From assembly GCA_000442125.1 (NCBI GenBank), contig KE546973.1, positions 1-64,000 of the forward strand: 64,000 bases of DNA. The letters run 5' to 3'. Positions 1-59,214 of the stretch are shown in pieces. Made by a program: the position numbers and the translations under genes. Below the pieces are notes generated by a model that saw nothing but the letters and a program-made list of their open reading frames with translations, did not search any database and was not told where the DNA came from. Positions within the stretch are counted from its first letter, which is position 1. Each line of letters starts with the position of its first letter. The stretch comes from Opeltia flavorubescens. Its lineage: Eukaryota > Ascomycota > Lecanoromycetes > Teloschistales > Teloschistaceae.

Positions 1-95
1 CCTAACCCTAACCCTAACCCTAACCCTAACCCTAACCCTAACCCTAACCCTAACCCTAACCCTAACCCTAACCCTAACCCTAACCCTAACCCTAA
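1..95. repeat. Telomere repeat array (CCCTAA)n
   Basis: About sixteen uninterrupted copies of the hexamer CCCTAA start at the first base and stop abruptly at GATCT. This is the C-rich strand of the TTAGGG telomere found in most filamentous fungi, so the window begins at a true chromosome end, not at an internal telomere-like tract. No degenerate hexamers are seen beyond the array. Confidence 0.97.
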
Positions 96-20094: not shown

Positions 20095-20992
20095 CTCTCA
20101 AGTTGAAATAACAACAATGTTTAAAGATTTGTAGAGACGTACGAATGATGCTGTAGATGCCAATCGTACTTTGGCTTCATGCTGCTAGAATGGTCGAAAA
20201 AGCTTAGTCTAATCTCCCCATGACCCGCGCCTTAGCGACTGTGCTCTGGCAGCATTAGTCGCGAAAGTGTATACCTATTGAAGTCTGGCGTGCGAGGCTA
20301 GAGTGTAGACAGCGTTGAGGCGTCGCAAGCGCAATGCTGGCGTAAACTGTAATAGCGGACTAATCAAAAAGGCAGGTGGGCAACATTCACTCACTACTTT
20401 TCGCATTAAGAGCAAACGTTGTATCTTATTTAATGATAGAGACTGAGCTTCATGTTTCTTTCGCTACCTCGATCGTCTGGCGGCACCAGTCGTTTCCTCG
20501 TGCTACAACAGCCGTATATGTCAGCGCAGTTCAAAGCTTGGAATTGAACGGCTGCACTTCGGTGGATCATCACACGCCGCCGCGTGTTGGTATATCTGAT
20601 ATCACGTCTCTAAGTCAAAGGTCATTTTGTATTCACAGATATAAGATATTGCATCCGTCGATCTGAAAAGATAGCTTTTGCATATGTAAGAGCATCTTTT
20701 AAAAGATGAGAAGCGGCGGAGATGGATGGATCGGTCTTGTATCATACTTATCTCGAAAATGCTATTCCCGAAGGAATGTTCAGCGTCGGGAACACAGGAG
20801 TGGAAGAGAAGAAGAGAGTAGTAGTAAAAAGATTGAGTAAGAATGTATATCAAGATCATCCAGGAGAAAAGGACAGATCGCGGATCCAAGAATCCAAGCA
20901 TTACAGGACAAGTTAAACGTAAGGACAGTATGGCCCGGTTGAAAGCGAAGACTACCTTTGTGATTATCTCGGCCTCATTTGAGAAAGCGCTA
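20095..20992. other. Spacer, 0.9 kb
   Basis: Lies upstream of the acetyltransferase. No gene is supported; the short frames on both strands lack domains. The right part may include eroded sequence continuing from the DUF6604 fragment. Confidence 0.4.
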
Positions 20993-21146
20993 ACAGAATC
21001 CTTAATGGCAAGAACAAGCCGAAGATTCATCAGGCTTAGTTTCAAATTCTCTAGCATTTGCACTTTGGCTTCGTCCTTGAATATATCCTCATATACCACA
21101 TTTGCCAACGATAAGAAGGGTTTTAACCCCCTTAAGGCCCTTGGTG
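20993..21146 (-). pseudogene. C-terminal fragment of a DUF6604-family gene
   Basis: The minus strand reads LSLANVVYEDIFKDEAK, then LENLKLSLMNLRL. This aligns with the C-terminal block of the DUF6604 pseudogene at 5-7.7 kb (LSLAKVAFEETFKDEAE, then SENLGISLADLQL). Nothing of the other roughly 750 residues is present: the next gene's 3' end lies directly upstream. It is a truncated, unexpressed relic that shows a second family member once stood here. Confidence 0.65.
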
Positions 21147-21150
21147 GTAG

Positions 21151-22529: not shown

Positions 22530-23453
22530 TTACTCATCATCAACAGCACGAAACGCATCCTCCACCTCCTCAATCCCATCATCACCAAAATCAAACCACT
22601 CCCTAGCATTCAGATTCAGCACGCGCTGTGCTTCATATCGTCGATGAAGCGCGCTCTCTGCGCTCCGCATATCCGGGACATTCCGGGTCGTGATGATGTT
22701 CAAAGCGTACGGATTTCCAGTCTGTAGCGTTCGCAGTCGAATCTCCGGATCGAGACTCATGCCGATTTTGTAGTACGATGTGCCTGTCATGTGGATTAGG
22801 TAGACGTAGCCTTTGGAACTAGGTTCCGTCTGCTCCCGCCGGAGGTTTTCGAGGTCAATTTCGATGGTTGCTGCTGTTGGTGGCGAATTTATCTGACTCG
22901 CTAGCAATTGGGGGACAGGCATCTGCGGCGCCGGCATCTGATGGGCCGTACTGGCATCTATGTCGTCGATGAGGGTTTCGAAAGTCTGGAAAGACGCATG
23001 CTCCGGCGCCACGCGTCTCAGAGTTGGAATATACGTCGGTGTCGGCGCCGGTATCTCTTCCAGCCTTGTTCGCAGCTCCCCATCAAGAGGGACAGGCTGC
23101 CAATTAAACCAGTGATCAAAGCCCTCTAGCAATCTCGTCATCACATCGTCCGGTATGGCAGGGTTCCCGTTTGCGACCGGCCCTTGACCGTGATGGCGGG
23201 TACCGACAGCGAGTTGGACAAAGCGACCAGGTCGTCCGCCGTGACTGTTGCAAAGAAACCAGATGTATGCCGTAACGGTTGGGTTAGCGATATCTGCTAT
23301 GAATTGCGAACGTACTTTGACCGTGGTCATGCCCTTTGGAAACCCCCATAAGTGTTGCGGAGAGAGGTAGTGCCAGTGGTTGGTAACCTGGGGACTTGAT
23401 GATTGGGCGAATCGCTGATTTCCGACACGGATTATGTAGTGCGATCGGGGCAT
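22530..23453 (-). CDS. T5orf172/MUG113-type GIY-YIG protein (307 aa)
   Basis: A single-exon gene. The C-terminal 90 residues form a GIY-YIG superfamily domain of the T5orf172/MUG113 kind: GYVYLIHMTGTSYYKIGMS begins the fold (Y-x(n)-YKIG core). The arginine helix follows in RLRTLQTGNPYALNIIT, and the catalytic-type Glu comes from AESALHRRYEAQRV, then REWFDF. The N-terminal 200 residues are unrelated to any domain I know. They include a basic first part and a Pro/Gln-rich linker (MPAPQMPVPQLLASQ). Members are predicted nucleases or nucleic-acid-binding proteins; fission-yeast Mug113 is meiotically upregulated. The same domain is common in phages and large DNA viruses, but this copy looks like an intact host gene. 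There is no neighbour with a linked role. Confidence 0.8.
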   Translation of the reverse strand: MPRSHYIIRVGNQRFAQSSSPQVTNHWHYLSPQHLWGFPKGMTTVKVRSQFIADIANPTVTAYIWFLCNSHGGRPGRFVQLAVGTRHHGQGPVANGNPAIPDDVMTRLLEGFDHWFNWQPVPLDGELRTRLEEIPAPTPTYIPTLRRVAPEHASFQTFETLIDDIDASTAHQMPAPQMPVPQLLASQINSPPTAATIEIDLENLRREQTEPSSKGYVYLIHMTGTSYYKIGMSLDPEIRLRTLQTGNPYALNIITTRNVPDMRSAESALHRRYEAQRVLNLNAREWFDFGDDGIEEVEDAFRAVDDE

Positions 23454-24706: not shown

Positions 24707-25105
24707 TCAGCACTTCTGGGAAAGATCATGATCACAGAGCTTAAAGCTATTCGCCGCTTCCCCAGCTATGAGATTACAACCCGCCGTGACGAGCTTTCCA
24801 GAAATACTGTCGTAATCGGCAGCCTGCCAATGCCCGTTTTTGTATCGACCGATAGCCAGAGTCTCGTTCTTGCTCAAGGCACGGGAGATGCAAAAAGCCA
24901 CTGCGTCGAAGCCGATATCGTGATGGACCTCATCGTACCAAAGCTGCGAGTATGCTCTGAATCTGTTGCCTGTGCAATTGGTGTGGCCCTTTGGATACAT
25001 CAGGATATGAACGTCGGCCAGCGGGGGAGTGGTATGAGGGATAGGAGGGATAGCGGCACGCGTAAGGGTGCAGAAGAGCAGGAAGAAGATCATGAGAACC
25101 TGCAT
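24707..25105 (-). CDS. Array member 1: small secreted protein (132 aa)
   Basis: A candidate effector. The signal peptide MQVLMIFFLLFCTLTRA is followed by a mature chain with MYPKGHTNCTG (the family's Cys-Thr/Ser-Gly). Next come IGFDAVAFCISRALSKNETL and IGRYKNGHW (the FGxYKxG block), then AGCNLIAGEAANSFKL (the GC...GANSF block). It has two extra cysteines compared with its paralogues: one in FCIS and one near the C-terminus. There is no intron in the coding region; a GTATGT donor-like site follows the stop by about 10 nt. Two UGUANNAUA elements lie downstream. The function is unknown, and secretion is inferred from the leader. Confidence 0.82.
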   Translation of the reverse strand: MQVLMIFFLLFCTLTRAAIPPIPHTTPPLADVHILMYPKGHTNCTGNRFRAYSQLWYDEVHHDIGFDAVAFCISRALSKNETLAIGRYKNGHWQAADYDSISGKLVTAGCNLIAGEAANSFKLCDHDLSQKC

Positions 25106-25425
25106 CTTGGTGGAAAGGTAAAGATATGGCTTGGAAATGGGCTCTTGATATGTGAAATTAGATGATGTTTGCTTTGCGACAGGAGATGGGTAAGTATGTT
25201 GGTTTAGGGTACCGATTAATTACAGCAGCACCGCCCTGTATGTTCTTGTATGGTGATCGAATGAGTGAAGCATTTTTCTATCTAATTCATTCTAGTTCAA
25301 TCATTGCCACAGACAGCTTCACAACAAGTAAATATGTGGATGCACTCATGACTTTGTCGTCGGATAATTCACTGAATTATTGATTCGAATTCAACTCCCT
25401 GATACTGTCTGCTGCTCCTCATGAA

Positions 25426-25435
25426 TAATGATACA
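25426..25435 (-). promoter_or_regulatory. 3' UTR UGUANNAUUA element, member 2
   Basis: TGTATCATTA on the minus strand, about 218 nt after the stop. It is the ten-base variant of the element found after the other members. The flank GAGGAGCAGCAGACAG resembles the member 1 flank. Confidence 0.45.
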
Positions 25436-25652
25436 CTATAATACCGACACCTGATTACCAAAAAAAGATCTCTCCCTTCTCATTCTGGTCTCCAATTGTC
25501 TCCAATATGAATTTGTGCAGATAGTTCACCGTGAAAGCTCCCAAGTCATCTCATTGACTGTCCTAAGTCCTGTGATCCCGATGTTCCGGTAAAAAAACTG
25601 CACATAACCATCAGCAATTAGTCTCCAAAGCTCGGTCAACAAATACTCACTC

Positions 25653-26078
25653 TCATCCCGGGAAACCTGGCACCAAAGAATCACGCAGCTCGAAAATATT
25701 GATGTATACCTTATCCGGCACATAATGACATACCTTGCCCTTAACAGAAGAGCCACTAACACTATATACAACCGTAGCATTCCACCATTGCCCGTGCTCA
25801 TACTCGCCGAAAAGAAGAGTCTCGTGGGCCTTCAGATCACGTGCGATGTAAAACTCAGATGCATCGAAGGAGACATCATGATAGACATGGTTGTATTTGA
25901 CGTTTTCGTATTCTGCCATATGGTGCATCCTGTTGCAATCTCTTCCGTCTGCACCGTGGAAACGAATGTAGAGATCGGACAAGGATGAGCGCTCTTCCAA
26001 AGGGACGGTGGGAGCAAGAGCGTAGCACAATGCGGAGATGACCAGCCAGGTGTAGATGGCCAGGTAGAAATGACCCAT
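25653..26078 (-). CDS. Array member 2: small secreted protein (141 aa)
   Basis: The leader MGHFYLAIYTWLVISALCYA differs from the common MRxSIIL type, and the mature part starts APTVPLEERSS. The family blocks are present but divergent: DGRDCNR replaces CTG, VSFDASEFYIARDLKAHETL and FGEYEHGQWW are clear, and the last block is KVCHYVPDK...NIFEL. It is intronless. A GTGAGT site begins within the stop region and points to an intron in the 3' UTR. The fold is probably the same as its neighbours, but it is among the more diverged members. Confidence 0.78.
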   Translation of the reverse strand: MGHFYLAIYTWLVISALCYALAPTVPLEERSSLSDLYIRFHGADGRDCNRMHHMAEYENVKYNHVYHDVSFDASEFYIARDLKAHETLLFGEYEHGQWWNATVVYSVSGSSVKGKVCHYVPDKVYINIFELRDSLVPGFPG

Positions 26079-26484
26079 CGTTTAGATCTGCTTAGAGGGA
26101 GATTTGGGAAAGGTATGGTAGGATAGTAATGATTGTTAGCAGGTATTCAAAGTATCAAAAGAATACAACAGGAAGATATTGATACGATAAGTAAAGTGTG
26201 ATGTTGCGCTGGTCATCCACGTTCACTGAGTAATCAAGACAGCTTTATCATGAGTCAATCTTTGATACACTCAGGAAACCACGGAATCCAAGACGTCATC
26301 CGATTTAAGATCGCAATGGAAAGCCTTATAGTGAATGTACATTCGGGGTGAAGGTGGTATGTTACGACAGATGCAGCACCCTTCTCCAGACATTTCGTAC
26401 GAGAAAGAGAAAAGTAAAAGAAAATCGATATTGAATTGAACCCCATTACATGATCTGAGAGCCCTCTGTGGGGGTGCACATGGA

Positions 26485-26493
26485 TATAATACA
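26485..26493 (-). promoter_or_regulatory. 3' UTR UGUANNAUA element, member 3
   Basis: TGTATTATA on the minus strand, 199 nt after the stop of member 3. Confidence 0.45.
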
Positions 26494-26691
26494 AGGTCCC
26501 ATTTTCACCTGATCTACCGAAAAAGCATACCCTTCTCATCTTGACTGCCTACGGTCACTGGCTGATTGGACTGTCCACCCCGTCCCTTCTTGAAAGAATC
26601 ATCGAGTCGCAGTATCCAAAAGCATCGAAAGGTGAGGAGCTTGAAACCCTTTAGTGAAGGTCTCCTGGGAAGAACAGGATCACTTACCACT

Positions 26692-27078
26692 CTAATGATG
26701 TATCAAAAAAGTACCAAGTGTGAAGCTATTCGCCCCTTTCTCATTACTAGGCAGAACATTGCACGTATCCTGAGCCTCATTACCCGCATTGGCCCTATAG
26801 TAATTCTTGGTCCGGTCATGATGACCGTGCTTGTAGTGACCAAAGTCTAAGAATTCGCCATAGGTGAGTGCGCGATCGAGATCGAAAGACTTTGCGGGAA
26901 AGCCAAAGCCGTATTTTGGATCGGTGTATTCTGGATTGAAAAAGACCGCTCTATCCCCAGTGCAGTCTGCATGCTTACACATGCGGATGCGGAGGTTAGT
27001 GGAGCGTTTGTTGAGAGGGAGAGCGAGAGTGAGTGTGAGGAAGTAAGAGAGACATAGGAGGATCATCGAAGCACGCAT
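26692..27078 (-). CDS. Array member 3: small secreted protein with Kex2 site (128 aa)
   Basis: The signal peptide MRASMILLCLSYFLTLTLA is followed by LPLNKR, a dibasic Lys-Arg that the Golgi protease Kex2 would cut, leaving a mature protein of about 103 residues. The blocks are KHADCTGDRA, YGFGFPAKSFDLDRALTYGE, FGHYKHGHH and TCNVLPSNEKGANSFTL. The leader plus LPLNKR is almost the same as in member 6. The coding region has no intron; GTAAGT follows the stop. Confidence 0.82.
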   Translation of the reverse strand: MRASMILLCLSYFLTLTLALPLNKRSTNLRIRMCKHADCTGDRAVFFNPEYTDPKYGFGFPAKSFDLDRALTYGEFLDFGHYKHGHHDRTKNYYRANAGNEAQDTCNVLPSNEKGANSFTLGTFLIHH

Positions 27079-27540
27079 AGTGAAACAAAGGGGAAGAAAA
27101 GTTCAAAGGGAATGTCGTGAAAAGAATGTACGGAGGTGGGAATGATAGAGTTGTTATGAGTTCAGACTCGAGTGAGACAGAAGCTCACAAGAGGAAATCA
27201 AGACTTTATACAGTGGTCTTTTAAGACTTGTTTGGTGAATGGCAAGTCGATCGTATTATTGCGCTGCTTTCTGGCTTGCACTTGTCTAAGCCCCCTTGGA
27301 TACAATCTTGACATCGAAATCGAATAATTCATTGGGCTTTTGATAATCAAGTCACGATCGATAGATCCGTTCTTTGCATCGTCGTGTCACTACCGAGAAT
27401 TCTTAGATATAAGGGTTTGAAGCGTATATTGGTTAAAATTTCTTCAGTCCAAGCTTGTACAGATAATAAAAACCTCGATCTCTAAGTCGACGGGGCTTAT
27501 AGTGCATTGACCCCGTTCGTACCACTGACATCTCTATAAG

Positions 27541-27549
27541 GATAGTACA
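27541..27549 (-). promoter_or_regulatory. Imperfect 3' UTR UGUANNAUA-like element, member 4
   Basis: TGTACTATC (last base off consensus) on the minus strand about 190 nt after the stop of member 4. Confidence 0.25.
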
Positions 27550-27739
27550 CTTTGCCCCTTCCAAATGATCTCCAAAGATATGGTCCTTCCTTATGCCCAT
27601 TGCCATCGAACACAGTCAATTCGTCCATTCTGCTGTTGGTAAGATTGAGTTCCCACATCAAAGAGACTCTAAATTTCATTAGCACCCACCTTCGATGAAC
27701 AAGATCTCAAGCCAACTCACCGGCCAATGCTGAGTCTGA

Positions 27740-28111
27740 TCAAGATCTGTTCAAAATGAGAACATCTGCCCCTTTGCCACTGGGTAGAGGATTGCACCCC
27801 TTGATAGCAAAGCGACCCGGACGCGCAGTGTAGTAGGTCACAGCTTCGTTCTGCCAACCATTGTCCCATCGACCGAAGGTTATAGATTCGCCTTTTTTTA
27901 ATGCTCGAGAGAGGTGGATAGCACTGGCTTCAAGACCAAAGCCGTGGTACACTTGGCCATATTCGGGGTCAGTGATAGGAGCGTATTTGCCTTTGCAATT
28001 TGTACGGTCGCCAGGGTATAGTTGGATTATGAGTGAGGCGTGGTTTGGAGGAGGATGAGCATAGGTGGGGAGGAAGCAAAACAGAAGAATAAATACAATT
28101 AAAGCATGCAT
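27740..28111 (-). CDS. Array member 4: small secreted protein (123 aa)
   Basis: The leader MHALIVFILLFCFLPTYA is followed by mature HPPPNHASLIIQLYPG. The blocks are RTNCKGKYA, YHGFGLEASAIHLSRALKKGE, FGRWDNGWQ and KGCNPLPSGKGADVLIL. Only two cysteines are seen in the mature chain, so one disulfide is likely. It is intronless. A strong GTGAGT donor lies about 25 nt past the stop. An open frame further downstream (27497-27685, minus) sits where the 3' exon would be and is judged non-coding. Confidence 0.82.
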   Translation of the reverse strand: MHALIVFILLFCFLPTYAHPPPNHASLIIQLYPGDRTNCKGKYAPITDPEYGQVYHGFGLEASAIHLSRALKKGESITFGRWDNGWQNEAVTYYTARPGRFAIKGCNPLPSGKGADVLILNRS

Positions 28112-28571
28112 GATAAGAGCGAAGAATGGAAGGCTTGTCTTGGGTGACTCGACAAGTTAGCTAAGTGAAGAGGAGGTTTCGATGGACAAGTAGTTTTTAA
28201 GACTAGAAACGATAATGGCAGAAGTTTAGGATGCGAAGAGTTCTTGGAAGATTACGAAGTGGTAGATCATAACCCCTGTGGTAACGACGAAGTGAACCAT
28301 ATCTTTGCATTGTTCATCCACATTCACACGCTGCTAAAGGCAGCTTCATAGAAGATCGAGGTTGGATATATCAACGGATTATGAGATTCTAGATTCATTG
28401 AGGGCTGGTTTTCACAAAGACGCTCCTAACAGGTTTGCATCCAGTACGAACGTGAAAATGAGTTAATTCATTCGCCTTGTCACCATTCAGAAGCACACCA
28501 GAATTAAGGAACCCCAATGTGGAAGTCAATCGAAGTGGACTGTGCCTACACAGTATGCAGTCTATCGTGGA

Positions 28572-28580
28572 TATGATACA
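28572..28580 (-). promoter_or_regulatory. 3' UTR UGUANNAUA element, member 5
   Basis: TGTATCATA on the minus strand, 168 nt after the stop of member 5. Confidence 0.45.
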
Positions 28581-28747
28581 CAAAAGCCCTCCGCCAATCT
28601 CAAAGGAAAGAAACATCCCACTTTTCATCCTAACCACTAACCATTCTTGGATGTCTTACTTCCTCGCTCACGATTGATCCAATGAAGATACCTCAAGGTC
28701 TTTCAGCAGATATCCTTTTTAAAAATGGAGCTCCTACCATTGTGAGG

Positions 28748-29152
28748 CTATTTGGAACCCTTGTTCAGCTGTATACTATCCGCTCCTTTGCCGGGAGGTA
28801 ATTGATTGCACCCCTTCTTTGCCTGAGGACCGGCATGCGCAGTATAGTATATTGTAGCCGGATGCCAGCCAGCGCCAGGATTGTTGAATTGACCGAAATC
28901 GATGGATTCGTGTTTCTTCAGCTTCCGAGAGAGGGAGAAAGCCTTGGCTTCAAGGCCAAGATCGGGGTATGCTACGCCATATAAAGGGTCTTTAAGAGGT
29001 GAAGGGTCGCCGCCTGTGCAGTCCATGTGATTGCCGTCATATACGCGGATTGTGATTTTGGCTTCTTCGGGTCCGTAATAAGGCATTTTCCAGGCATAAG
29101 TTTGGGTGAGGAGGAAGCAAGATAGGAGGACTAGGATGATCGAAGGGCGCAT
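28748..29152 (-). CDS. Array member 5: small secreted protein (134 aa)
   Basis: The signal peptide MRPSIILVLLSCFLLTQTYA is followed by WKMPYYGPEEAKITIRVYDG. The blocks are MDCTGGDPS, YPDLGLEAKAFSLSRKLKKHE, FGQFNNPGAG and KKGCNQLPPGKGADSIQL. It is closest to member 4 in the C-terminal half (YYTA.., GADSI/GADVL). It has two mature cysteines and no coding intron; a GTAGGA site follows the stop by about 17 nt. A clear upstream block shared with member 6 lies at 29377-29405. Confidence 0.83.
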   Translation of the reverse strand: MRPSIILVLLSCFLLTQTYAWKMPYYGPEEAKITIRVYDGNHMDCTGGDPSPLKDPLYGVAYPDLGLEAKAFSLSRKLKKHESIDFGQFNNPGAGWHPATIYYTAHAGPQAKKGCNQLPPGKGADSIQLNKGSK

Positions 29153-29376
29153 GGTGTTGGGAAGTAAGAGAAGGCTGGTGCAATGGTGCTAATTGAACAG
29201 CCTGAGTCGTGACGAGTAGGTAAAGAAGTTGAAATGACGACAGAATTGTACGAACACTTCAAATGTGTATAGTGGAAGCTCAGAGAGACCAAAAAGCTAG
29301 GTGGAGACAATAGCATGGATATTTATTACTCTTATACTTATTCCTGAAGTGAATTGAATTTTTCTCTTCACTATCC

Positions 29377-29405
29377 GCGTTAACTCATTACTCAAGGCAG
29401 TGTCA
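29377..29405 (-). promoter_or_regulatory. Shared upstream block of member 5
   Basis: On the plus strand it reads TAACTCATTACTCAAGGCAG, 225-250 nt upstream of the start. It is nearly identical to the block before member 6 (GAACTCGTTACTCAAAGCAG), while the surrounding spacers have diverged. Confidence 0.5.
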
Positions 29406-29506
29406 CGATGAATGACTCTAGATATACTCGAAAAGCCACGACAAAAAGATCACAGCTACTTTTGATCAAATTGTAATGTAATCAAGAATGTTTATTCAAT
29501 TCATTT

Positions 29507-29537
29507 CCAATGGATCCAGTCCAATGGATCCAGATGG
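29507..29537. repeat. 14-bp tandem duplication
   Basis: TCCAATGGATCCAG occurs twice in direct succession between members 5 and 6. It is a small local duplication without an evident role. Confidence 0.7.
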
Positions 29538-29568
29538 ATTGACCTCGTTATCTGCTAGATCTCGAGAA

Positions 29569-29577
29569 TATCATACA
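29569..29577 (-). promoter_or_regulatory. 3' UTR UGUANNAUA element, member 6
   Basis: TGTATGATA on the minus strand, 236 nt after the stop of member 6. Confidence 0.45.
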
Positions 29578-29812
29578 TAACAGCATGCTAGCTGATCTCC
29601 AGCAGTTACATCTCTCGTGAACTCTTCTCTCGTCCTGTTTCAAAACCTAGCCTGAGATATCTTGTAAATTGCCGATCATGCCATTGGTAAGAGAATCCGC
29701 CAAGTCATCTTCATCCTAGAGTAAGTGAAGGAATCCTATCGTTTGTCAGCACATACCCAAAAAGAGGACGAAGACAAAAATAATCATGCGAACCTACCAG
29801 CCATTGATCGTC

Positions 29813-30196
29813 TTATGTCCCAGGTTTAATCACCAACTTGAAGGTATTCGCCCCCTTCTGATCCACAGGCAAATGATTGCACCCAATCCCGGCTTCAAAC
29901 TCTTGTTTCTTCCAATATACCTTCGTTTTCTTATATTTGCCGTCTTTATAGTGGCCAAATTGAAGCTCTTCATCGAGTCGTAGACCTCTGGTGGGGAGAT
30001 AGAAAGAATATGCGTCGAAGCGAAAATCGTGGTACAAATGATTGTATTCGGGCCTGACGCCGACAGTTCTGTCGCCACCTGAGCAATCGCTTGTGGGGTA
30101 CATGTATATCGTGAGGTCAGCGGTGACGCGTTTGTTGAGAGGAAGGGCGTGGATGAGGAGGCACGATAGTAGCAAAAGGATAATTGAGGCGCGCAT
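29813..30196 (-). CDS. Array member 6: small secreted protein with Kex2 site (127 aa)
   Basis: The signal peptide MRASIILLLLSCLLIHA and the propeptide LPLNKR (Kex2-type Lys-Arg) precede mature VTADLTIYMYP. The blocks are TSDCSGGDR, LYHDFRFDAYSFYLPTRGL, FGHYKDGKY and GIGCNHLPVDQKGANTFKL. The central block carries a short insertion (PTRG). It is basic overall, with a KYKKTKVYWKKQ stretch that its paralogues lack. No coding intron; GTAGGT follows the stop by about 18 nt. Confidence 0.83.
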   Translation of the reverse strand: MRASIILLLLSCLLIHALPLNKRVTADLTIYMYPTSDCSGGDRTVGVRPEYNHLYHDFRFDAYSFYLPTRGLRLDEELQFGHYKDGKYKKTKVYWKKQEFEAGIGCNHLPVDQKGANTFKLVIKPGT

Positions 30197-30375
30197 GGTT
30201 GGGAAGAGAAGAGGCTTGTTCTTAGAAGACGAGGAAGCGGAGAAATTGAAGAATGAGAATGGAAAAAGATATGAGGCTGGCGGACTTCAATATTTCCAGG
30301 GGGATCCAGACTGTGCCGCGGTTGTTCCAGACTCGTTCAACGTAGAAAGTGAATCATAATTTAACGTCAACCACT

Positions 30376-30407
30376 CACGTGAACTCGTTACTCAAAGCAG
30401 CTTCATC
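30376..30407 (-). promoter_or_regulatory. Shared upstream block of member 6
   Basis: Plus strand: GAACTCGTTACTCAAAGCAG followed by CTTCAT, 180-210 nt upstream of the start. It is the best match to the member 5 block; weaker forms (AAGGCAGCTTCAT, AGACAGCTTTAT) precede members 4 and 2. Confidence 0.5.
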
Positions 30408-30590
30408 TCCACGTCATGGAATTCTGGATACACATCAGAAAGAAGACATCTAAGACAAAGGCAAGGGTCGATGGGGGCATCTACAGTATGGCAAATCAAA
30501 AATTTGCTAGAAGCTGATGAAATCGACCTCGAGACAATGGAAAGCAAGATAGATTGGATCTCGCCCACGCCATCTACTATCCCTCTTTGA

Positions 30591-30599
30591 TATTGTACA
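30591..30599 (-). promoter_or_regulatory. 3' UTR UGUANNAUA element, member 7
   Basis: TGTACAATA on the minus strand, 234 nt after the stop of member 7. Confidence 0.45.
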
Positions 30600-30832
30600 T
30601 AAATTGCCTTTCGGCTGATATTAAAAGAGTGTGTCCGTCCCTCATGCTGATGATCAACTGTCCATGCCCCTGCCACTGAGTATCGTACAAGCTGCCAATC
30701 CCATCATAAGTAATATTTTTCGCCTTGTCGATCCCACCGTAGATTTTCTGGATAGAGGGATGCTAAGATTTATGAGCTACAAGTGGAGGAAGCAGAAGAT
30801 AATGACGTGGGACTCACTTACTAGCACTTTGC

Positions 30833-31216
30833 TCAATGCCTATGGTTAACAAGCAACTTGAAGGTATTCCCATATTTTCCCGGATCCAGAGAATAGCACA
30901 CCTCCCCCTGTAACTCAGCTAAGGTAGTGACCACCTTCGCATCATTATGCTGACCGTGTTTGTATTGACCGAATTCGATTGACTCGTTGAGCATCATGGC
31001 ACGAGAGAGTTTCAAGGCTGTTACGTCGAATCCGAAGCCCCAGTACAGATAGTTGTATTCGGTGCGGAAAGGGTTAAGAGCGCCACCGCTTCCACAAGCG
31101 CGACGTTTGTATTTCTGAAAGAGGTAAACAGTCATGTCGGTCGAAGAGCGTTTATCGTGAGGAAACGCCTGGACAAGGAAGCACGAAAGAAGAATGAGGA
31201 TGATTGAGACGCGCAT
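30833..31216 (-). CDS. Array member 7: small secreted protein with Kex2 site (127 aa)
   Basis: The signal peptide MRVSIILILLSCFLVQA is followed by FPHDKR (Kex2-type dibasic) and mature SSTDMTVYLFQ. The blocks are RRACGSGG, YWGFGFDVTALKLSRAMMLNE, FGQYKHGQH, then EVCYSLDPGKYGNTFKL. The Cys-x-Gly motif is reshaped here (ACGSGG), and the last block has KYGNTF instead of KGANSF. It is intronless, and GTAAGT follows the stop by about 18 nt. It is the last member before the decayed 5-kb gap. Confidence 0.82.
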   Translation of the reverse strand: MRVSIILILLSCFLVQAFPHDKRSSTDMTVYLFQKYKRRACGSGGALNPFRTEYNYLYWGFGFDVTALKLSRAMMLNESIEFGQYKHGQHNDAKVVTTLAELQGEVCYSLDPGKYGNTFKLLVNHRH

Positions 31217-32151
31217 CGTGAGATCAAAGAAGGGGTGGCTAAAAGGAACGTATGAGATGGGATCTTCGGCGTGCGAATCTGAAAAAAGGCGGAAATGATA
31301 TGCTAAGGAGCAGAAAAGATTAAGATGAGGATGGCAGAATTCAAAGCGAGTTGAAAGCTCGCAGGGACGCTAGATTGTGATGCTTAGAGACATCTCAAGT
31401 GACATAAGTAGTGAAGTAATCTTCAGGTTGGTTGTTCGCGTTCACTCGCTTTAGAAGCCAGCTATACCAGCAGTCAATCCATGATCTACTCAAGAAACAC
31501 CTTAATCGGAAGGTTCATTCAGTCCCGCATGTAAATGTGATAATCAATGGAAACATTCACTATGTTGTGAAGATTAGAGCCTAACGATCGTTAGAAATTG
31601 ATTCCATATCAGCTCAGTCTTTGCACGTTACACCAAAAATGTACAGCAACTGATCTGACGATCAGGCATTAATTTGGGAAAAAGGAGCCGATGGTATCTA
31701 TGTTCATCACATCACTAAGATGATATAACGCCCATCGGCTATGATGGAATCTCAGCCCCAGGTTATGAACAATGCCGGGTGATATGAGAGCTACAAAATT
31801 AAACCGCGCGCAACGATTTCCATGTGCCTTCCCAATTCATTTACGCTCCGTCAGATGGAGAAGTATGAAAAGAGTCTCATTTCGAATGTTAACGTTATGA
31901 TGATGCGAGAACTGATATGAGATACGATGATCGATCCAGCAGTGGTGGAAACAAGTGTACCTATTCTCACAACATCTCCTGCCCTGTCACCGGGAATTAA
32001 GGTCTCAACGTAGCCCAATGTCTCCTCCGACGCGAAAGGAGTAAGCCTGGTAAGATCCTGCTGCGTCATTTCTTGGCTGACGCTCAGTGACCTCAGTCTG
32101 GACATACGTCATGCATGCGGCTGCCTACCTTTCTATGCACAACCTCGATTA
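31217..32151. other. Spacer after member 7
   Basis: Holds the promoter of member 7, including a TTCACTCGCT block near 31440 that is like those of other members. After that comes sequence downstream of the hydrolase fragment. No intact gene. Confidence 0.4.
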
Positions 32152-32433
32152 TCAAAGGGTAGGGAAGAGCATAGGCCAGTCATGTGACATGGCCTCGTAC
32201 TGTTTCCAACGAACGTTGACGCCACCCACATAGGCCCTGTTCATGGTAACTTTAGCGGCATCGACCATTCGCTCCTCCCCCAGCTCGAACCACATTAGAG
32301 GTGCTCCTATCCAATGCGAAGCGGCTGCCGGTGAAGACAAGCGGATAGCAAAATTGCAGATCTTATCATTCAAACCCATTATAGATGCACGGTACTTGAT
32401 GACATCATGCGACGTATATGAGAGTACCCTCAT
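32152..32433 (-). pseudogene. Alpha/beta-hydrolase C-terminal fragment
   Basis: The minus strand encodes DVIKYRASIMGLNDKI, then SHWIGAPLMWFELGEERMV, RAYVGGVNVRWKQYEAM and SHDWPML. This is the layout of the C-terminal part of fungal alpha/beta-hydrolase-3 (steryl-acetyl-hydrolase-like) enzymes, in which the catalytic His lies in H-D-W. No catalytic GxSxG region with a consistent frame was found upstream. It is a gene relic inside the gap of the secreted-protein array. Confidence 0.45.
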
Positions 32434-33586
32434 GGATGTAAGAAATGGTGACTGCAGAAATCATATAATTCAACATGTTGCTATACTTCCTCATGTCCAA
32501 CCAACCTGAAGAACCGGTGCCCGCAGACAGCGATAGTGGGCCACATGTCCATTGCACACGGAGATTACGCATTATTGGGCATTTCCAATGCTCATCACCT
32601 TAGCCGAGCGATCGCATGGCTTCTGGAAGTAAATCCTGTACATCGCCCTGCTCGGTCTGAGGCGCAAGTAGCTCAACGTGGGTAACGAAAGAAGTGGCAT
32701 CTGGCTTCTCGACCTTCAACGAACGCCTTCTGGCGGATCGATGTTGACATTTGTTTGCCTTACTGAGGCTTGCCGTCCTCGCCTTCCGCGCGAGTGAGAG
32801 GCTGCAATTTGATCTCTCCCGCTCTAAGGCCTCAGAAGTAGCATAGCGGAAGGTCATTCCTGCAGGAATAGAAAGGATCAGGGCTTGATGAGCCGAGAAT
32901 CAAGTTTGAGGCCGGAAATCTAGGGCACATCTTCAATTCACCTTTCTATAGATCTACATAAGATCTAGGTGATAGCAGTGCGGCGCGTCGAGCAAGGCAA
33001 CCGCTGGGGTACAGTCGCCTTATATGCACAGAACGCATTTTGGACAGTGCGCAGTCCGCTTCGGGTAGATTTTCCATTGATCCCGATGCAGCTAAACAAG
33101 CTCCTTGGACGTGAGTGGCCTTTTATGGGCAATAATGTGGATGCTTTATAGGCTCTTGCCATCCCATCCGCCTGGGTCTCTAGATTAAATGTTCTCCCTG
33201 GGCCACTGTTCTTCCTGTACAATCTGTGGGCCTCAGGGTCCTCGCAGCTGCATTGCTGACAATTCCTTTGATTGCCTTGTATCGGTTAGTCAAGCCTGCG
33301 AATCGAGTTTTAGCAATGGGAGGATAGTTTTGGGCTGGGATGATATGTTGATCTTTAAATTTTCTGATGCACCTGATAACTGCTCTCGCTGCGCTCCATG
33401 ATGCTGTATGCTGCATTACAGGTAGTGGGTGGTGCAGGCGTAGTCACCGTCAAAATCTTGGACAGTTCGCTACTCCCACCTTTGCTTCTCGAAAGCTGTC
33501 GAGTTCCTCAAGTAAGGTTTTTTGGCTCATTCGCTGTGGTCTCACCTTCTCATCTCCCTACATAAGGTTCTGATATACAGCCATAG
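32434..33586. other. Decayed spacer
   Basis: Short frames on both strands (for example 32600-32857 minus and 33189-33573 plus) with several stops. Parts may belong to the hydrolase relic, but I could not assign them. Confidence 0.35.
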
Positions 33587-34680
33587 ATGGCTTCTGAAGA
33601 GCATGTCGAAGATGCTATTCGTGGCCCGATGATTCTGGTTGCTTCGTGGTTCTTTCTGAGCTTAGCTATCGTCATCGTCTCTCTACGTTTCATTATGAAG
33701 ATGAAGAAAAAGGCATAAGGCTGAGATGAATTTCTGATTTATGCTGCACTGGTTCGCCTCTACCATCACGTCTTCACATGGTATCTCTTCTCGTTAATCC
33801 AAATAGGTTGTCGCAATTTATGGCATGATATTGCACACCTTAGTTCGTGATGTCTGACATTCAATCGATCACAATGTATACCATCTTGTTGAAAATACAA
33901 AGCGTTGTAGGTATATCTCTCGTCAAATGGTCCGTTTGCGCCGTCGTCGTTCGCCTAATCAAAAGAACCCATCGGCGTATCCGCATCGCGCTATGGGTCA
34001 CCATTTTGCTTCTGACAGCAGTCACGTTTGCAACAACTCTTTTCATCAGTCTTCAATAAATACCTTTGTAGAAGACATAGCGTCCTGGCCTGCCTGGATC
34101 TTTTACACCAAAGTCAGTCCAGACCCAGCTGGTCCGGGTCTTTTTTGATGAGTGATTTGTATTGAGCAAGAGCTTATGACCGCTGCTGACTATACTGACT
34201 TTATGGTAGAGGTTAGCACTGCAACTGACTTTGTTTGCGTGATCATACCGACCCTCATTACCCGCGAGCTTTGAGTCAATCGTGGGACGAAGATTGGAAT
34301 GATTGCCATTATATGTGTAGGATTCATGTAAGAGCACCAGAAACAGAGAAAAAATCCTTTAACAATCCGAAGCACTGCTGCCTGTGGCATTGACGTGACT
34401 GTGACTGTTGGAATCGTGATAAAAGACACGAATTGTAAGTGAAGAAACTGATCACCTGTGCACATGAAGTCACGCGCACCAAGACTGTTCAACGATGCAA
34501 ATAAGGGGACTATGTTCCTAGACAAATGTGGGTTCTGTAAGTGTTCCACCGTACTCGTCCATCCATTGAGCTCATTCCGCTTACAGCTTCGAACAAAGAC
34601 TAGGTATCACAGTTGCTAGCCTCCCAATTTTGCGCACGCGGATGGCTGCAATCCTCGATAAGATAGTCAAAGTGTGTAGC
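33587..34680 (+). pseudogene. PTH11/rhodopsin-fold integral membrane protein, pseudogene
   Basis: Starts MASEEHVEDAIRGPMILVASWFFLSLAIVIVSLR in pieces that match the opening of the fungal rhodopsin-fold (PTH11-related) seven-TM family. Stops follow at once (33716 and six bases later), after which DEFLIYAALV continues the family's D-D-F/Y-L-x-x-x-A motif. Later pieces are GISLVKWSVCAVVVRLIKR (TM3), a TM4 VTILLLTAVTFATTLFISLQ, TATDFVCVIIPTL (TM5/6) and GITVASLPILRTRMAA (the ASLP-x-LR end). At least five further stops break the chain, so it is a dead copy. Several stops are TGA or TAA where CGA or CAA would fit, in line with RIP-like decay. Confidence 0.65.
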
Positions 34681-36151
34681 TCTTGGTCTATGCCTTACAA
34701 AAAGACGAACTGAGTTACTATGCAATACTACTTCCGGCGCCAACTGAAAGACTTGGACGACTTGGAGGGCAAACAACTAGTGCGTGGCAGCAGTTGGGTG
34801 ACGTTACACTATCTTGAGTGGCTACATTGCGGCAAAGTTGGGAGATCTGCGGGTGGTCTATCCAAGATATCAAGGTAGAATTGCCATACACTCATTCGTT
34901 AGCGCTCAGGAATGCGTGCAGCCAAGAATAGTGTGAAAACGACAAGTTTGCGGTCATTCAAATTTCCCATCAACGTTCTTCTGTCTACCATGATATTTAC
35001 TACGTATGGCTTTCACATAATCTAGATGTAATAGTCCTTGGTTAATAGTTCTTCTCTTTGATTGAACTAAGCGTCCAAAAAGCTTGCGAACTTGCAGCAT
35101 CTTTTTCGGATTTGGGATTATGAGTTAAAGGTATCTAGAAGCTATATGAACTCATAGAGAACGAACGGCTAAAACCCCTGAGTCTGTGACGCGTGCACGC
35201 GTGAACGGTCTCAAAACTTTTTCTTCCGGGAAGAGCGCTTATCGGTTTTCGGTGGATCGAAGCAAGACTATGAACCCTAGAATTATTGGAGGCATCACAG
35301 AATGAACCGGGGACATCTCCGTTTGGTATGGGTTGGGATAGGTGTCTCTGATAAGCATTTGATCAATCGGCGAATCAGCTAACCAATCAAGAATGGAGGA
35401 TTTGGATGTACACAATACAACGTAACAAGCTTCTGAACCTTATTTGCATGCAACCAGACGCTTCATCCAAGGTCAAAGAATCGCAAGAACAGTTTGGAGA
35501 CTCCTATGACGACCGCAGCATCCATTTCAGCCATCTTTCCGCCGGGTTCAAGTTATCAAGAAGTACCAGCTAGGTTGAAGTTGTACAAAGATGTCTAAAT
35601 AGAGCGTGCGGGCAGAATCTGCTCGTTTTCTCGCTCCTTAGGCTGTGGTCTTGAGCCTGGCAAAGAAGATGCTCGCATCTATCGACACCCGATGGCCAAG
35701 GAGTACTTCCCATACATCTTTCGGCACGATAAATACAGGCATTCTTTGGTTAGGCTCAAGTGCTGGCAGTAGCATGGGAATAAAGAGAAAGAAAAGGTTT
35801 ACAAGCGGCGCCCTAGTAACAAACCTTGAATTTGGTGTCAAGGAATGACTGAGGAGGCGTACATTTAGCACATATCACGTAGTGTCCATCGTGGATGAGT
35901 GTATCCAAGGATCGAAAGTTCTTTGACAATCATTTTAATCCTTTTTTCGATCCTCAATTGGGATTGTCACCGCATTGGCACGATTAGTACTTGAGAGGCA
36001 AGGCGAGCTGCCGCCAAAACGCATCATGCAATTCCAACTGAGGATGTTTTCAGCGTCACAGATCTGAGCAGAAAGTAATGACCTTGACGTGTGAAGAGAT
36101 AAGAAGTATCATAGATTGACTGAGCTCACAACATCCATTACCCTCCGTGAA
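34681..36151. other. Spacer, 1.5 kb
   Basis: No gene is supported. Short frames around 35638-35871 lack recognisable features. Its right end contains the 3' flank of array member 8. Confidence 0.4.
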
Positions 36152-36160
36152 TATGGTACA
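36152..36160 (-). promoter_or_regulatory. 3' UTR UGUANNAUA element, member 8
   Basis: TGTACCATA on the minus strand, 232 nt after the stop of member 8, although this member lies 5 kb from the rest of the array. Confidence 0.45.
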
Positions 36161-36391
36161 CAATCCTCCCTCCCGCTGATCTCAAAAATGACCAATATTC
36201 AAAGAAAGCATTCCTTCCTCATGCGTATTCCGGGTCCTAAGTCACTTCCAAGTCATGGATCTCGCTGTCGAAAGATAGGATCCCTCGTGGTATTCCCTCG
36301 CGAATCATGGAACGCAGGAGCCTTGAGAATACGGAATATTAGTCTTTCCCAACAGAAAACAGTCCTTTAGCCAAGAGCTCCTTACCAATCC

Positions 36392-36787
36392 TCAACCCTT
36401 CCTCAGCTCAAAAGTATTCGCCCCATACCCATCAGGCAGCGCATGGCATTGATCATCAACAGGCCCTTTCAAGGTATAGATCTCCCAAGTATTCTTCGGA
36501 TCCCCCTTTGTCTTATCCCTGTATGCTTTATATCGACCGAAAACCAGCGACTCGCCATCCTTCAGTTTGCGATGCAGGTAGACAGCTCCCACATCCCAGC
36601 CAAATCCGGAATAACGCTTGTTGTATTTGACGTTGTTGTGATCCCAGGACCAGTCGGAAAAGCCGGTGCAGTGTTTTTGGTCGGTGGGGTAGATGCGGAG
36701 GTCGAGCTTAGACGATGAAGGATCAGGCTTTGGGAGGACTTGAGTGATGATAGAGGAGAGGAGGATGAGGATGGTTGGCACGCGCAT
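36392..36787 (-). CDS. Array member 8: small secreted protein (131 aa)
   Basis: The ATG at 36787 gives the leader MRVPTILILLSSIITQVLP; the frame is open further 5' but without a better start. The mature chain has DLRIYPTDQKHCTGFS, SGFGWDVGAVYLHRKLKDGE, FGRYKAYRDKTKGDP (an enlarged FGRYK loop) and DDQCHALPDGYGANTFEL. The block before YSGFG is enlarged too (SWDHNNVKYNKR), which makes it one of the longer mature proteins. No coding intron; GTAAGG comes just after the stop. The upstream block near 36961-36985 (TTGTTCACGTTCACTCA) matches that of member 7. Confidence 0.82.
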   Translation of the reverse strand: MRVPTILILLSSIITQVLPKPDPSSSKLDLRIYPTDQKHCTGFSDWSWDHNNVKYNKRYSGFGWDVGAVYLHRKLKDGESLVFGRYKAYRDKTKGDPKNTWEIYTLKGPVDDQCHALPDGYGANTFELRKG

Positions 36788-37354
36788 GGTGAGCCGCAGA
36801 GTGAGAAAGAATTTGGAGACTTGGTATGATTTGGGTTCTTCGGGGTGTACCGGTGGGAAAGCGGAGATGATGAAACAGCAAGACATTACCGACTTAGGGA
36901 CGCCACGCTACTGTCCCATCGAAATGTTCAAGACGAAGTCGTGAAGCAGAGTGGTTGAGTTGGTTGTTCACGTTCACTCATGGCGAAAAATAATTGATCT
37001 GACGAGTCAATTCTAGTTTCACTCAAGGAATATCGGATATAGAGACTTCATCAGACGATGACTTTGACCTGCAAGAGAACAAAAACTAGAATGAAGTGAC
37101 CCTGCCAACACCATCTGATGTTTCTCACAGACATTCTCACCAACGCCAGCTCCAGCGTCTCTCACCAGATTCCGACCCACTTTGATCAATATCCGGCCTT
37201 GATGATCAGAAATATCTCTGACCTAATTGAAACAAAATCCAAATCCATCCACCCCAGAGTCTCGGAGGATCAAGCCTTCAACACCCATCAGCACCCCCAC
37301 TCCAAACAGACCCACAGTCAAAAAACCACTTACCAACCGTCAATCCCAAGCCAT

Positions 37355-37738
37355 CTAATCCTTCCTAATCATAAACGCATTCGCCCCCTTCATATTCTTC
37401 GGCAACGGATGGCACCCCTTCTTAATCTTCGGCCCCTGAACCATATAAAACCACCCCTTCTCATCATAGTGGTAGAAATGGATATTTTCACCCTCCACAA
37501 GATCGCGGCTGAGTTCGAAAGATTTCACATCAATGCCGAGGTGCTTGTACATGAGGCCGTAGTGAGTTTTGGGGGAGTGTCCAAACTGGATGCTGTAGAT
37601 GTCTTGAGATTTGCAGTTGCTGGTCGGGTACATTGAGATGTCCATGCCGTAGGGATCATCGGGTCCGGCGGGGGCGGGGACAGGGTTGGCGTGGGCGAGG
37701 AGGGAGAGGAGGGGGATGAGGATGGTTGAAGGGCGCAT
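37355..37738 (-). CDS. Array member 9: small secreted protein (127 aa)
   Basis: The signal peptide MRPSTILIPLLSLLAHA is followed by NPVPAPAGPDDPYG. The blocks are YPTSNCKSQD (the Cys-x-Gly glycine is lost), YKHLGIDVKSFELSRDLVEGE, FYHYDEKGW and KKGCHPLPKNMKGANAFMI. It is the only member without a UGUANNAUA element in its downstream 250 nt. The 5' half uses almost only C-ending codons, whereas the 3' half is rich in G. A GTAAGT donor follows the stop by about 25 nt. Confidence 0.82.
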   Translation of the reverse strand: MRPSTILIPLLSLLAHANPVPAPAGPDDPYGMDISMYPTSNCKSQDIYSIQFGHSPKTHYGLMYKHLGIDVKSFELSRDLVEGENIHFYHYDEKGWFYMVQGPKIKKGCHPLPKNMKGANAFMIRKD

Positions 37739-51370: not shown

Positions 51371-53407
51371 TCACTCAAGTTCAATAGTCTGCATCCCCTT
51401 CTCCGCCTCCTCCACACCCTCCCCACCCATCAACCCATGAACGTAGCAATCGCCCACAAGCCCCCACCTCTCCCCCTTGCTCCTCAACACAATCAACACC
51501 TCGGATCCAGGAACCAACCAAACCTCATCCCCCACCTCCGCCGACAGCGGCCCTATACCAATCCTTCCCTTCTGGGTAGCAAAGACCCTAGCATGCGAAA
51601 CAATGACAAAGCTATCCCCGAAAGTAACCAGACGTCTCATGTGCTCTTCGTACCTCACGTCCCTGGCCCCCAGGGGCATATTCCCCATGAGTTTCGCGAA
51701 TGCCTCGATCTCGGGGGCGGAAGGGAGGATATTACCGCTACTATCATCGCTCTCATCAGCAAGAGAATAGATTGCGGAGCGGATATCTTCCTTGATCTTA
51801 GTTTCAGCAGTATCAGCATCGGTAACATATTCCTCCTCCTCAAACTCAATATCATCCTCCTCGTCTCTCAGGAGCCAAGTCGCCGCCATAAAAAGCCACC
51901 AGCTCCTAAACGCCGTTCCCAGGCTCTTCGGCGCGGGGACATCATACTCCGCACTCCCGGGATGAAACCCCGAATCTTCAACCAAAGTTCTCCAGATGGC
52001 TTCTGCGCGGGGTTGTCCAGTGCAAGGATAGAATTCGTCCATCTCGATGAAGATACGGAGGAGACCGTGCCAGCAAAATTCCTCCCAGATTTGCTTTTTG
52101 GTTTCGCCAATGGCGGTGATGGTGTCGATATGTGCGGCTCGTACCTCGAGAAGCACCGTACTACCTTCCTTGTGGATTATTTGCCATTCCGCCTTAAGGT
52201 CTCCCGACGCCCGAAAAGTCCCTCTCTTCTGATTACCAACACCAGTCGCAGACGTGGAGTCGAAGTCAGGAACCCACGATGGCAGAGCGTTCGTTTTTCT
52301 AAAGCTAGCGTCTTCGACGAAAGATAGGATGAAGAGATCCCCCGAGCTTTTGATGATATATTCCGCAGCTTCGGTATAAATCTGAGCTGTCGATTTACCA
52401 TAGTCCGGTTTCAAAAGCGGATGAGATGCCCTTTCCTCCTGAGACCCTTCAAAGAAGCCTAGCAGGCCGTACACTTTATCCTTTGGATTAGAACAATAGT
52501 TCGCCCGACTGAATATAAGCGCTGTAGCAAGCCTAGATCCGAATTCGAATTCTCGATAGAACATGTGATACAACACCAAGATTGCTTGTTGAATCGCCGA
52601 CATGATGGGTGTAGCAAGCTCTCCCTCCGCGTTTTCCGTCTCAAGGAACCCCCTTTCGCCAGCCCAGGGTGAGCCATCGATGTAGACGGCGGCATGCAAC
52701 AACTTCTCCTGATCGATTCGGTACTTGCCAACAAAGAAAGCCGTGAGCCGCGCCATTCGACATTCCTGAAGGATCCAGATTCGAGAAAACCACGTTCTCC
52801 TATAGAGCGACGCAAGAGCCCTCCAATCACTATCTTGTATCGACAAGCCGAGAACATCCCGAGTCCGGACACTGACTTCAGGCCACGGATTAAGCGGGTC
52901 CACCTCCCTCAGTAGGTCCCGATCTTTCTCCGCCAGCGCATCCAGAAGCTTCAAGGCCGGCTTCGTATATTCATCTTCCTCACCGAGCCAAACAACAACA
53001 TGATGCGCCCTCTGATAAATATCCCTCATCTTCAAAATCTGCCGACTCCTCTCCTGCACATTATCCTGATCGATGCAAACCGCATCGATCCACCACGGCC
53101 CATCCCCAGGCTCTTCGGCCGCGCGTTGGAAAAAACGAAACAGGTTTTCGGAAACAAATAATAGATGCCGCCCATTGCAGATGATAGGACAGCACCTCTC
53201 ACCGGTCATTCCCTTCCGCGCCGCTTGGATTGTTGGTGCGCCCCACGTATACGAAAGCGCCGCGTAATGATGCTTTGTCGAGATATCGGCGACGCGAAGT
53301 GTGCAGCGGATTTCTCCAGCATCAGACGATGGATGAATCGTTAGTAGACGAAATGAATCCGGAGCGTCCAAAGGCAAAGACTCGTAGATACTATGTGTCT
53401 CTTCCAT
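51371..53407 (-). CDS. HET-domain protein (678 aa)
   Basis: A single-exon gene of the heterokaryon-incompatibility class, whose members trigger cell death on non-self recognition. The HET domain covers about residues 45-230. Block 1 is YAALSYTWGAP (about 48-58). Block 2 is PWWIDAVCIDQDNVQERSRQ, followed by MRDIYQRAHHVVVWLG. Block 3 is WFSRIWILQECRMA, then a catalogue of family spacers (ANYCSNPKDKVYGLLG, a very typical HET block). The C-terminal half is variable, with an acidic stretch DEEDDIEFEEEE near residue 520. It stands alone, with no STAND partner beside it. Fungal genomes carry dozens of these; which of them act in incompatibility cannot be told from sequence. Confidence 0.93.
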   Translation of the reverse strand: MEETHSIYESLPLDAPDSFRLLTIHPSSDAGEIRCTLRVADISTKHHYAALSYTWGAPTIQAARKGMTGERCCPIICNGRHLLFVSENLFRFFQRAAEEPGDGPWWIDAVCIDQDNVQERSRQILKMRDIYQRAHHVVVWLGEEDEYTKPALKLLDALAEKDRDLLREVDPLNPWPEVSVRTRDVLGLSIQDSDWRALASLYRRTWFSRIWILQECRMARLTAFFVGKYRIDQEKLLHAAVYIDGSPWAGERGFLETENAEGELATPIMSAIQQAILVLYHMFYREFEFGSRLATALIFSRANYCSNPKDKVYGLLGFFEGSQEERASHPLLKPDYGKSTAQIYTEAAEYIIKSSGDLFILSFVEDASFRKTNALPSWVPDFDSTSATGVGNQKRGTFRASGDLKAEWQIIHKEGSTVLLEVRAAHIDTITAIGETKKQIWEEFCWHGLLRIFIEMDEFYPCTGQPRAEAIWRTLVEDSGFHPGSAEYDVPAPKSLGTAFRSWWLFMAATWLLRDEEDDIEFEEEEYVTDADTAETKIKEDIRSAIYSLADESDDSSGNILPSAPEIEAFAKLMGNMPLGARDVRYEEHMRRLVTFGDSFVIVSHARVFATQKGRIGIGPLSAEVGDEVWLVPGSEVLIVLRSKGERWGLVGDCYVHGLMGGEGVEEAEKGMQTIELE

Positions 53408-53968
53408 TATCGGATAGTATGCGCGCTGTTGTTCTTTATTTTATTTTTGCTCCGAGCAGTACAGGTAAGAGAGCAGTTCGGAAACAACCGGCGAGAAAGG
53501 CTTTGCCCCCCAATTTATATCTCATATGATCCATCCAAAAATCTCAGCAGCGCACAATGTACTTAGCATGACTACAAGCGCCTTACAATGGATTTCTGTC
53601 CTCGGCAAGAAAAGTGGCCTGCGTCTGGACAACGCGCTGCGGCGTACAATACTTTCTCACTATACTCATACACGCTTGGATACTTTGGCCGTATTTTGTA
53701 GAGGGAGAGAAAGTAAGAAATACTGATGTTGACACGAGTAAGACTCTTCGAGAAGTCATGCAGCTGCCCAAGTCAGGCGCTAATCCCAATCAGGGAACCT
53801 GCCAACCACCAATTGTTTTGAAAGTCTATAATGATCCATATCATAAATTCTCTACTATAGATTATTATTCAACATGCTCTCGATACATTTTCCTTTGCCC
53901 TGCCCCATCCCCTCACTCCCCCATCCTCCTCCTCCACCACCTTTTACCTCAACCCCCACCCCCCTTCA
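53408..53968. other. Spacer, 0.56 kb
   Basis: 5' flank of the HET gene and 3' flank of giant gene 2. No gene was seen. Confidence 0.45.
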
Positions 53969-58471: not shown

Positions 58472-59214
58472 GTTCGCCAGCCGTGAGGTTAACCAAAGAA
58501 TGTCGGTATCAAGTCCTCTTGAGGTTTGCAGCGACAGTATCTGAGAGGACTTCACCAGCACGACTCCGGCTATTAGGACCTCAGAGCTGAGTAAAAGATT
58601 CTATGTTGCCATGCTTTCATGTCTACCCCACACCTTGCCTGTATGTCAAGCTCGCATCTTGTAGCACGAACGTGGCTTCGGTGCTCGCTGCCATATTGAA
58701 ACTAGTCGACCAAAGCTCGTGTTCGCCGAAGCACCTGACTGTGATCGATGGAGAGACGAATTCGCCTATTCCTCGTCACGGCGACTTGAATGCCATGTTC
58801 AGACCGCCTACCAAGCCGTAAGAAGCTTCAGAGTTTGCACCAGCTGGGCCGAGACTCTCGTGTTCGCTTGTCCATCGAGCTCGATGGCAATCCAAAACGC
58901 CGTGTGAATTGCCATGGCTGGCTGAAGAAGACTTGGTCTTCATGACCGGAGATGTGACCTTGAGTGGCGTGGCTGATTGGGGTGATGCTAGTCAAGATAG
59001 TCGATAGACGATCGGGATGACACGAGATGGTAGCGTGTGTAGCTCTCAAACATGCAGTAGCGTATTGCGCGATCTAATGCAGGATCAACACACTAGTTTC
59101 CCCATAGCTGCAGATTGAAAAGGTCCAAAGTGATTTATCCCGAGCTTGAATAATACACGTAATTTTAGACTAGCAGGCCATTACCTCCACGCTGCACCAA
59201 ATCATTCATTTTAC
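58472..59214. promoter_or_regulatory. Spacer between the two giant genes
   Basis: 743 bp that must carry the end of giant gene 1 and the promoter of giant gene 2. No site was recognised; plus-strand frames here are shadows. Confidence 0.4.

Follow-up and report, generated by a model that had tools for sequence, protein, structure and literature searches.

What are nine divergent copies of one small gene, set in a row close to a telomere, good for? The question is raised by the window analysed here, 64 kb at the start of contig C9 of the ascomycete Opeltia flavorubescens (genome of 34.4 Mb in 23 contigs). The answer that we hold to be the probable one, with a good share of doubt, is that these genes form a family of small secreted orphan proteins with a crystallin-like fold, used against other cells of the thallus or to manage them. 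Teloschistaceae being lichen-forming fungi, the host- or niche-directed role put forward in a preliminary description of this DNA would have the alga, or microbes, as partner; the 'in planta' framing of that description is not applicable, since the assembly is that of a lichen mycobiont.

The array and its family

The window opens in telomere repeats, which makes the place of the array subtelomeric as had been proposed, and the opposite end of C9 is likewise telomeric. The array lies 24.7-37.7 kb from the repeat and consists of nine minus-strand genes of 123-141 codons, with uninterrupted frames and at the positions first assigned to them. The features are as follows (each member being an open reading frame, ORF; lengths in amino acids, aa):

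1..95, no strand: telomere repeat, 15.8 copies of CCTAAC by repeat count
24707..25105, minus strand: member m1, 132 aa, first structure model (predicted local distance difference test, pLDDT, 86.1)
25653..26078, minus strand: member m2, 141 aa
26692..27078, minus strand: member m3, 128 aa
27740..28111, minus strand: member m4, 123 aa, grouped with m5 in the tree (88/83)
28748..29152, minus strand: member m5, 134 aa
29813..30196, minus strand: member m6, 127 aa; second structure model, made from its mature part, 29813-30127 (pLDDT 91.1, with eight strands)
30833..31216, minus strand: member m7, 127 aa
36392..36787, minus strand: member m8, 131 aa, counted from the ATG at which the signal peptide begins
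37355..37738, minus strand: member m9, 127 aa

The longest ORF of m8 runs to 36886 and has 33 codons more upstream of the signal-peptide ATG. From m1 to m9 the start-to-start steps are 973, 1000, 1033, 1041, 1044, 1020, 5571 and 951 bp: as described, the spacing is about 1 kb from m1 to m7, and m8 and m9 are set apart by a step of 5.57 kb after m7, all other steps being of 951-1044 bp. The view that this gap is decayed was not borne out, for no family remnant is recognisable in it (best hmmsearch matches at E-values, E, of 2 or above) and no repeat origin was found, the 31.5-36.2 kb stretch being single copy in this genome. Comparison of 14 upstream regions revealed no common promoter element: 9-mers were found in at most three of them, a number also reached by single-base shuffles.

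The nine genes are one family and not a chance assembly; with m6 as query, a genome search recovered all eight other array members (E 8e-21 to 1.4e-6). Their overall identity is as low as announced, i.e. 21-51% with a mean of 32% (36 pairs). The ordered blocks noticed at first sight are not strict: only L10, Y57, R75, E81 and C110 (m1 numbering) are invariant among the nine. Across the 15 domains of the array branch, R47, E53 and C83 (mature m6 numbering) are invariant; the R and the E are not kept in the three genes of a second branch, found on contig C8 (see below). Over the 18 family proteins of the genome, two cysteine positions reach 90% conservation or more, one in a CxG after the first strand, the other in GC..L. 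Past residue 18, two cysteines are present in 14 of the 18 proteins and three to five in the remaining four.

All nine proteins have a signal-peptide-like start, in keeping with the preliminary description: their N-termini are strongly hydrophobic, with a Kyte-Doolittle 11-residue maximum of 2.35-3.57 versus 0.38-1.84 past residue 30. A hydrophobic N-terminus is found in 18/18 family proteins, and the family is probably secreted. Behind the signal peptide, at residues 22-24, m3, m6 and m7 carry a KR pair, which suggests a processing site. The signal peptide is better conserved than the mature part (43% versus 31% identity, and higher in 52 of the 66 pairs formed by 12 genes). For the same 66 pairs the ratio of nonsynonymous to synonymous substitution rates (dN/dS) was calculated by the Nei-Gojobori method, pairs with dS of at most 1.5 being considered measurable. 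The 28 measurable pairs all fell between 0.38 and 0.91, the other 38 being saturated or undefined. The diversifying selection originally invoked thus finds no support in these values: a dN/dS below 1 in 28/28 pairs indicates that reading frames were kept, and neither proves nor rules out bursts of positive selection.

Predicted fold and searches for relatives

Two members, m1 and mature m6, were modelled from overlapping family alignments, with predicted template modelling scores of 0.71 and 0.82, respectively. Among the matches listed by VIA-align, crystallins accounted for 45 of 50 with the m1 model and for 47 of 50 with the m6 model, for which 79-85 of 104 residues were aligned. The top Foldseek match of m1 was DdCAD-1 (E 0.029, probability 0.96), a protein which we take to have a crystallin-like domain. 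In 11 of the 18 proteins the first strand carries a Greek-key start, [YFW]x(4-6)[YFWC]xG (a pattern widened here to allow Cys and longer loops), with the x4 spacing in five of them. Judging from the models, a double-Greek-key (beta-gamma-crystallin-like) fold is likely. Unrelated folds, which would have spoken against the preliminary interpretation, did not emerge: both models, built from overlapping alignments as they are, resemble crystallins. Nothing was found in a viral structure library at E of 0.001 or below, and HM-1, SMPI and MiAMP1 were absent among the structure matches listed for both models, which excludes nothing.

At the sequence level, the statement that the proteins belong to no recognised family held in the Pfam, NCBIfam and protein-database searches, none of which gave an outside relative. 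In Pfam, 16 of the 18 members were scanned, with no match over cut-off and weak ones only (E at least 0.057); NCBIfam gave nothing over cut-off, and PDB sequences gave weak matches only (best E 0.052). A known effector or toxin sequence family was considered and set aside, there being nothing over the Pfam or NCBIfam cut-offs. Searching a protein database with the nine array members produced 898 candidates and none at E of 0.01 or below, by a method that needs shared 5-residue words; the 15-domain profile gave 213 candidates and a single match at E of 1 or below, which judging from its sequence is this genome's own gene on contig C6. The family profile did not reach any well-described housekeeping family. 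The database does hold related lichen fungi, and the lack of a match there in a word-based search is no proof of absence. As a control, the COX15 exon beside the C6 member matched one protein cluster at 100% and ten proteins of Teloschistaceae genera at 86-92%; these ten came from Gyalolechia, Gallowayella, Loekoesia, Pyrenodesmia, Caloplaca, Teloschistes, Ikaeria and Haloplaca, with Lambiella, the first genus listed from outside the family, also at 86%. A search for 5.8S rRNA, meant to place the species, gave nothing.

The link to known crystallins was sought in three further ways. PF00030 gave two sub-threshold matches across the genome, neither of them at a family locus; the profile link to Protein S domains was not significant (hhalign E 0.21); and the calcium motif [ND][ND]xx[ST]S was found in 0/18 proteins, that of C6 being represented by its first domain only. 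This motif is not present in every beta-gamma-crystallin.

Copies elsewhere and neighbouring genes

The genome was searched with eight family proteins, so that copy counts are lower bounds. Outside the array, nine further ORFs were found at six places and a remnant at a seventh:

C13:1262508-1262888, minus strand: family ORF
C13:1536823-1537191, minus strand: family ORF
C8:656523-656909, minus strand: family ORF
C8:104982-105398, 106074-106535 and 107239-107709, minus strand: three-gene array, starts 1.14 and 1.17 kb apart
C12:109014-109397 and 112616-112999, minus strand: pair, the first copy having lost the last block and the second cysteine
C6:1430085-1431038, minus strand: multi-domain copy in a single ORF
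C21:460047-460226, minus strand: m9-like remnant

This brings the known copies to 19, of which 18 are ORFs (one, on C12, without its end), and the nine-gene array is the largest cluster of the family found. In the C6 ORF two domains flank a degenerate stretch, which to the eye resembles a third one. The C8 trio is the second branch, and its profile joins the first one (hhalign 96.4%, E 1.2e-9). In the 18-protein tree, where 11 of the 15 inner branches are unresolved, the array is not a single clade: four changes were counted versus a shuffled mean of 6.3, 26 of 500 shuffles being as low.

The expansion near the telomere that had been suggested is part of the picture: four of the eight family places are no more than some 115 kb away from a contig end, the other four being internal. 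The binomial value for this count is 0.023, with a 115 kb limit set after seeing the data and 46 ends taken, one of which, on C21, was read and is non-telomeric. At all eight places the family lies on the minus strand of the contig concerned, which would happen by chance once in 128, orientation being arbitrary. A last oddity, noted for L048:2586-3539 and protein P0001, is an assembled read-set protein whose opening letters occur in a different frame of the COX15 region and which then goes on into the 3' portion of the C6 family gene; a contig that is chimeric, or a rearrangement, may be the reason.

As to the rest of the window, a cytochrome P450 (piece 505-1032, by eye) and a transporter of the major facilitator superfamily adjoin each other at 505-3899, less than 4 kb from the telomere. 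The frames at 6953-7669 (plus strand) and 20602-21150 (minus strand) have stretches similar by eye and possibly represent a duplicated subtelomeric gene. Between the telomere and the array, 22530-23453 (minus strand) encodes a protein with T5orf172 and MUG113 matches. Beyond the array, 51371-53440 (minus strand) encodes a 689-aa HET-domain (heterokaryon incompatibility) protein; an unfiltered tblastn match of 34 residues within this ORF (52684-52785, E 3.4e-4) was judged to be due to chance. Three long frames of 469-823 aa follow on one strand (55386-62966, minus) and may be one cluster; an F5/8 type C domain is present in one of them, the two others having no Pfam match at E of 0.01 or below.

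Possible roles and known systems

We infer the following course of events. Each protein would be made with a signal peptide, followed in three array members by a dibasic KR site that may be processed; outside the cell it would fold into one compact domain of the predicted double-Greek-key type, probably with one disulfide joining the two conserved cysteines, and without calcium. With its core kept and the rest divergent, each copy may have an extracellular partner of its own. Taken together, the probable secretion and single disulfide, the conserved core and the divergence of the remainder suggest extracellular binding proteins. Their role could be microbial antagonism in the manner of HM-1 (WmKT) or, equally possibly, binding of the algal photobiont surface. 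A bolder version is that lichen fungi of this lineage possess a private, telomere-expanded repertoire of crystallin-fold secreted proteins, a one-gene concatemer of the domain included, whose individual copies serve to recognise strains of algae or microbes of the thallus or to hold them back, as a lichen counterpart of the effector families of plant pathogens; we regard it as tentative and rather doubtful.

Four other explanations were weighed. The one that survives best, unlikely as we think it is, makes them the fungus's own structural or stress proteins, either secreted wall or matrix components or abundant proteins comparable to the Abundant Perithecial Protein of Neurospora, which has the crystallin fold, and denies them any role towards a partner; an identity of 21-51% between tandem copies and signal-peptide-like starts seem to fit it less well. 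To another all-beta fold, crystallin-like at low resolution only, we give a smaller chance, in view of the crystallins that prevail among the matches listed for the better model, of its eight strands and of the Greek-key start in 11/18 proteins; this explanation is compatible with any role, so that the chances given here are not exclusive. Slightly less probable again are secreted inhibitors, e.g. of proteases, on a crystallin-like scaffold such as that of SMPI, the Streptomyces metalloproteinase inhibitor: the fold class would be shared and the proteins are small and one-domain, but no Pfam match was over cut-off in the 16 members scanned and no inhibitor is among the structure matches listed, the latter excluding nothing. 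That we are dealing with pseudogenes or never-expressed remains of a subtelomeric family is very improbable, as 18 of 19 copies are ORFs and dN/dS is below 1 in every measurable pair, the C21 remnant and the truncated C12 copy being what speaks for it. In our judgement, partner-directed use (antagonism or symbiosis) is about twice as probable as structural or inhibitor use.

Should the proteins prove structural, the finding becomes ordinary. Otherwise they are testable candidates for lichen interaction proteins, and form a defined set, 18 ORFs whose fold is predicted and whose chromosomal places are mapped, few enough to be expressed and tested singly.

The family can be likened to several known systems. 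With the beta-gamma-crystallins (lens crystallins, Protein S, clostrillin and the Abundant Perithecial Protein of N. crassa) it shares the predicted fold, the predicted strand number and, in part of its members, the first-strand motif; it differs by the lack of a significant Protein S profile match and of the calcium motif, by probable secretion and by its one probable disulfide. HM-1 of Cyberlindnera mrakii, which is one and the same toxin as WmKT, has five disulfides, whereas 14/18 family proteins have two cysteines; no sequence match was found, and killing is known for HM-1 only. According to the available part of PMC12715866, HM-1 is secreted as a 125-aa precursor, has a single mature domain of all-beta fold (as predicted for the family), and attaches to mannoproteins of the wall before inhibiting glucan synthase.

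Two lichen studies come closer by organism. PMC12712428, in its accessible portion, cites a Xanthoria study (10.1016/j.cub.2024.12.041) for predicted effectors in X. parietina, and that study may already report this family. In Gyalolechia flavorubescens, as far as the part of PMC9232553 at hand goes, most of the small secreted proteins specific to the genus or the species are up early in resynthesis. The likeness lies in a Teloschistaceae genus and in lineage-specific secreted proteins, by description and not by sequence; the early-symbiosis expression belongs to that study, which in the part at hand assigns no fold or family.

The nearest counterpart is in PMC10462633: in the sections of it available to us, the crystallin/WmKT fold is among the orphan candidate effector families found in >80% of 20 fungal genomes; as a class of orphan candidate effectors of fungi, the fold has thus been published before. 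Neither 'lichen' nor 'Lecanoromycetes' occurs in the main text of that paper. Like these effectors, the proteins described here are small, probably secreted fungal orphans without a recognised domain (18/18 hydrophobic N-termini, no Pfam match over cut-off in the 16 scanned), with a predicted eight-stranded double Greek key and a sequence that diverges while this predicted fold would be kept; the tandem subtelomeric array and the multi-domain copy set them apart, the likeness being one of description, not of sequences or models. If the predicted fold is true, a toxin-like fold that PMC10462633, in those sections, presents as widespread in orphan candidate effectors of other ascomycetes is now met in a lichen fungus.
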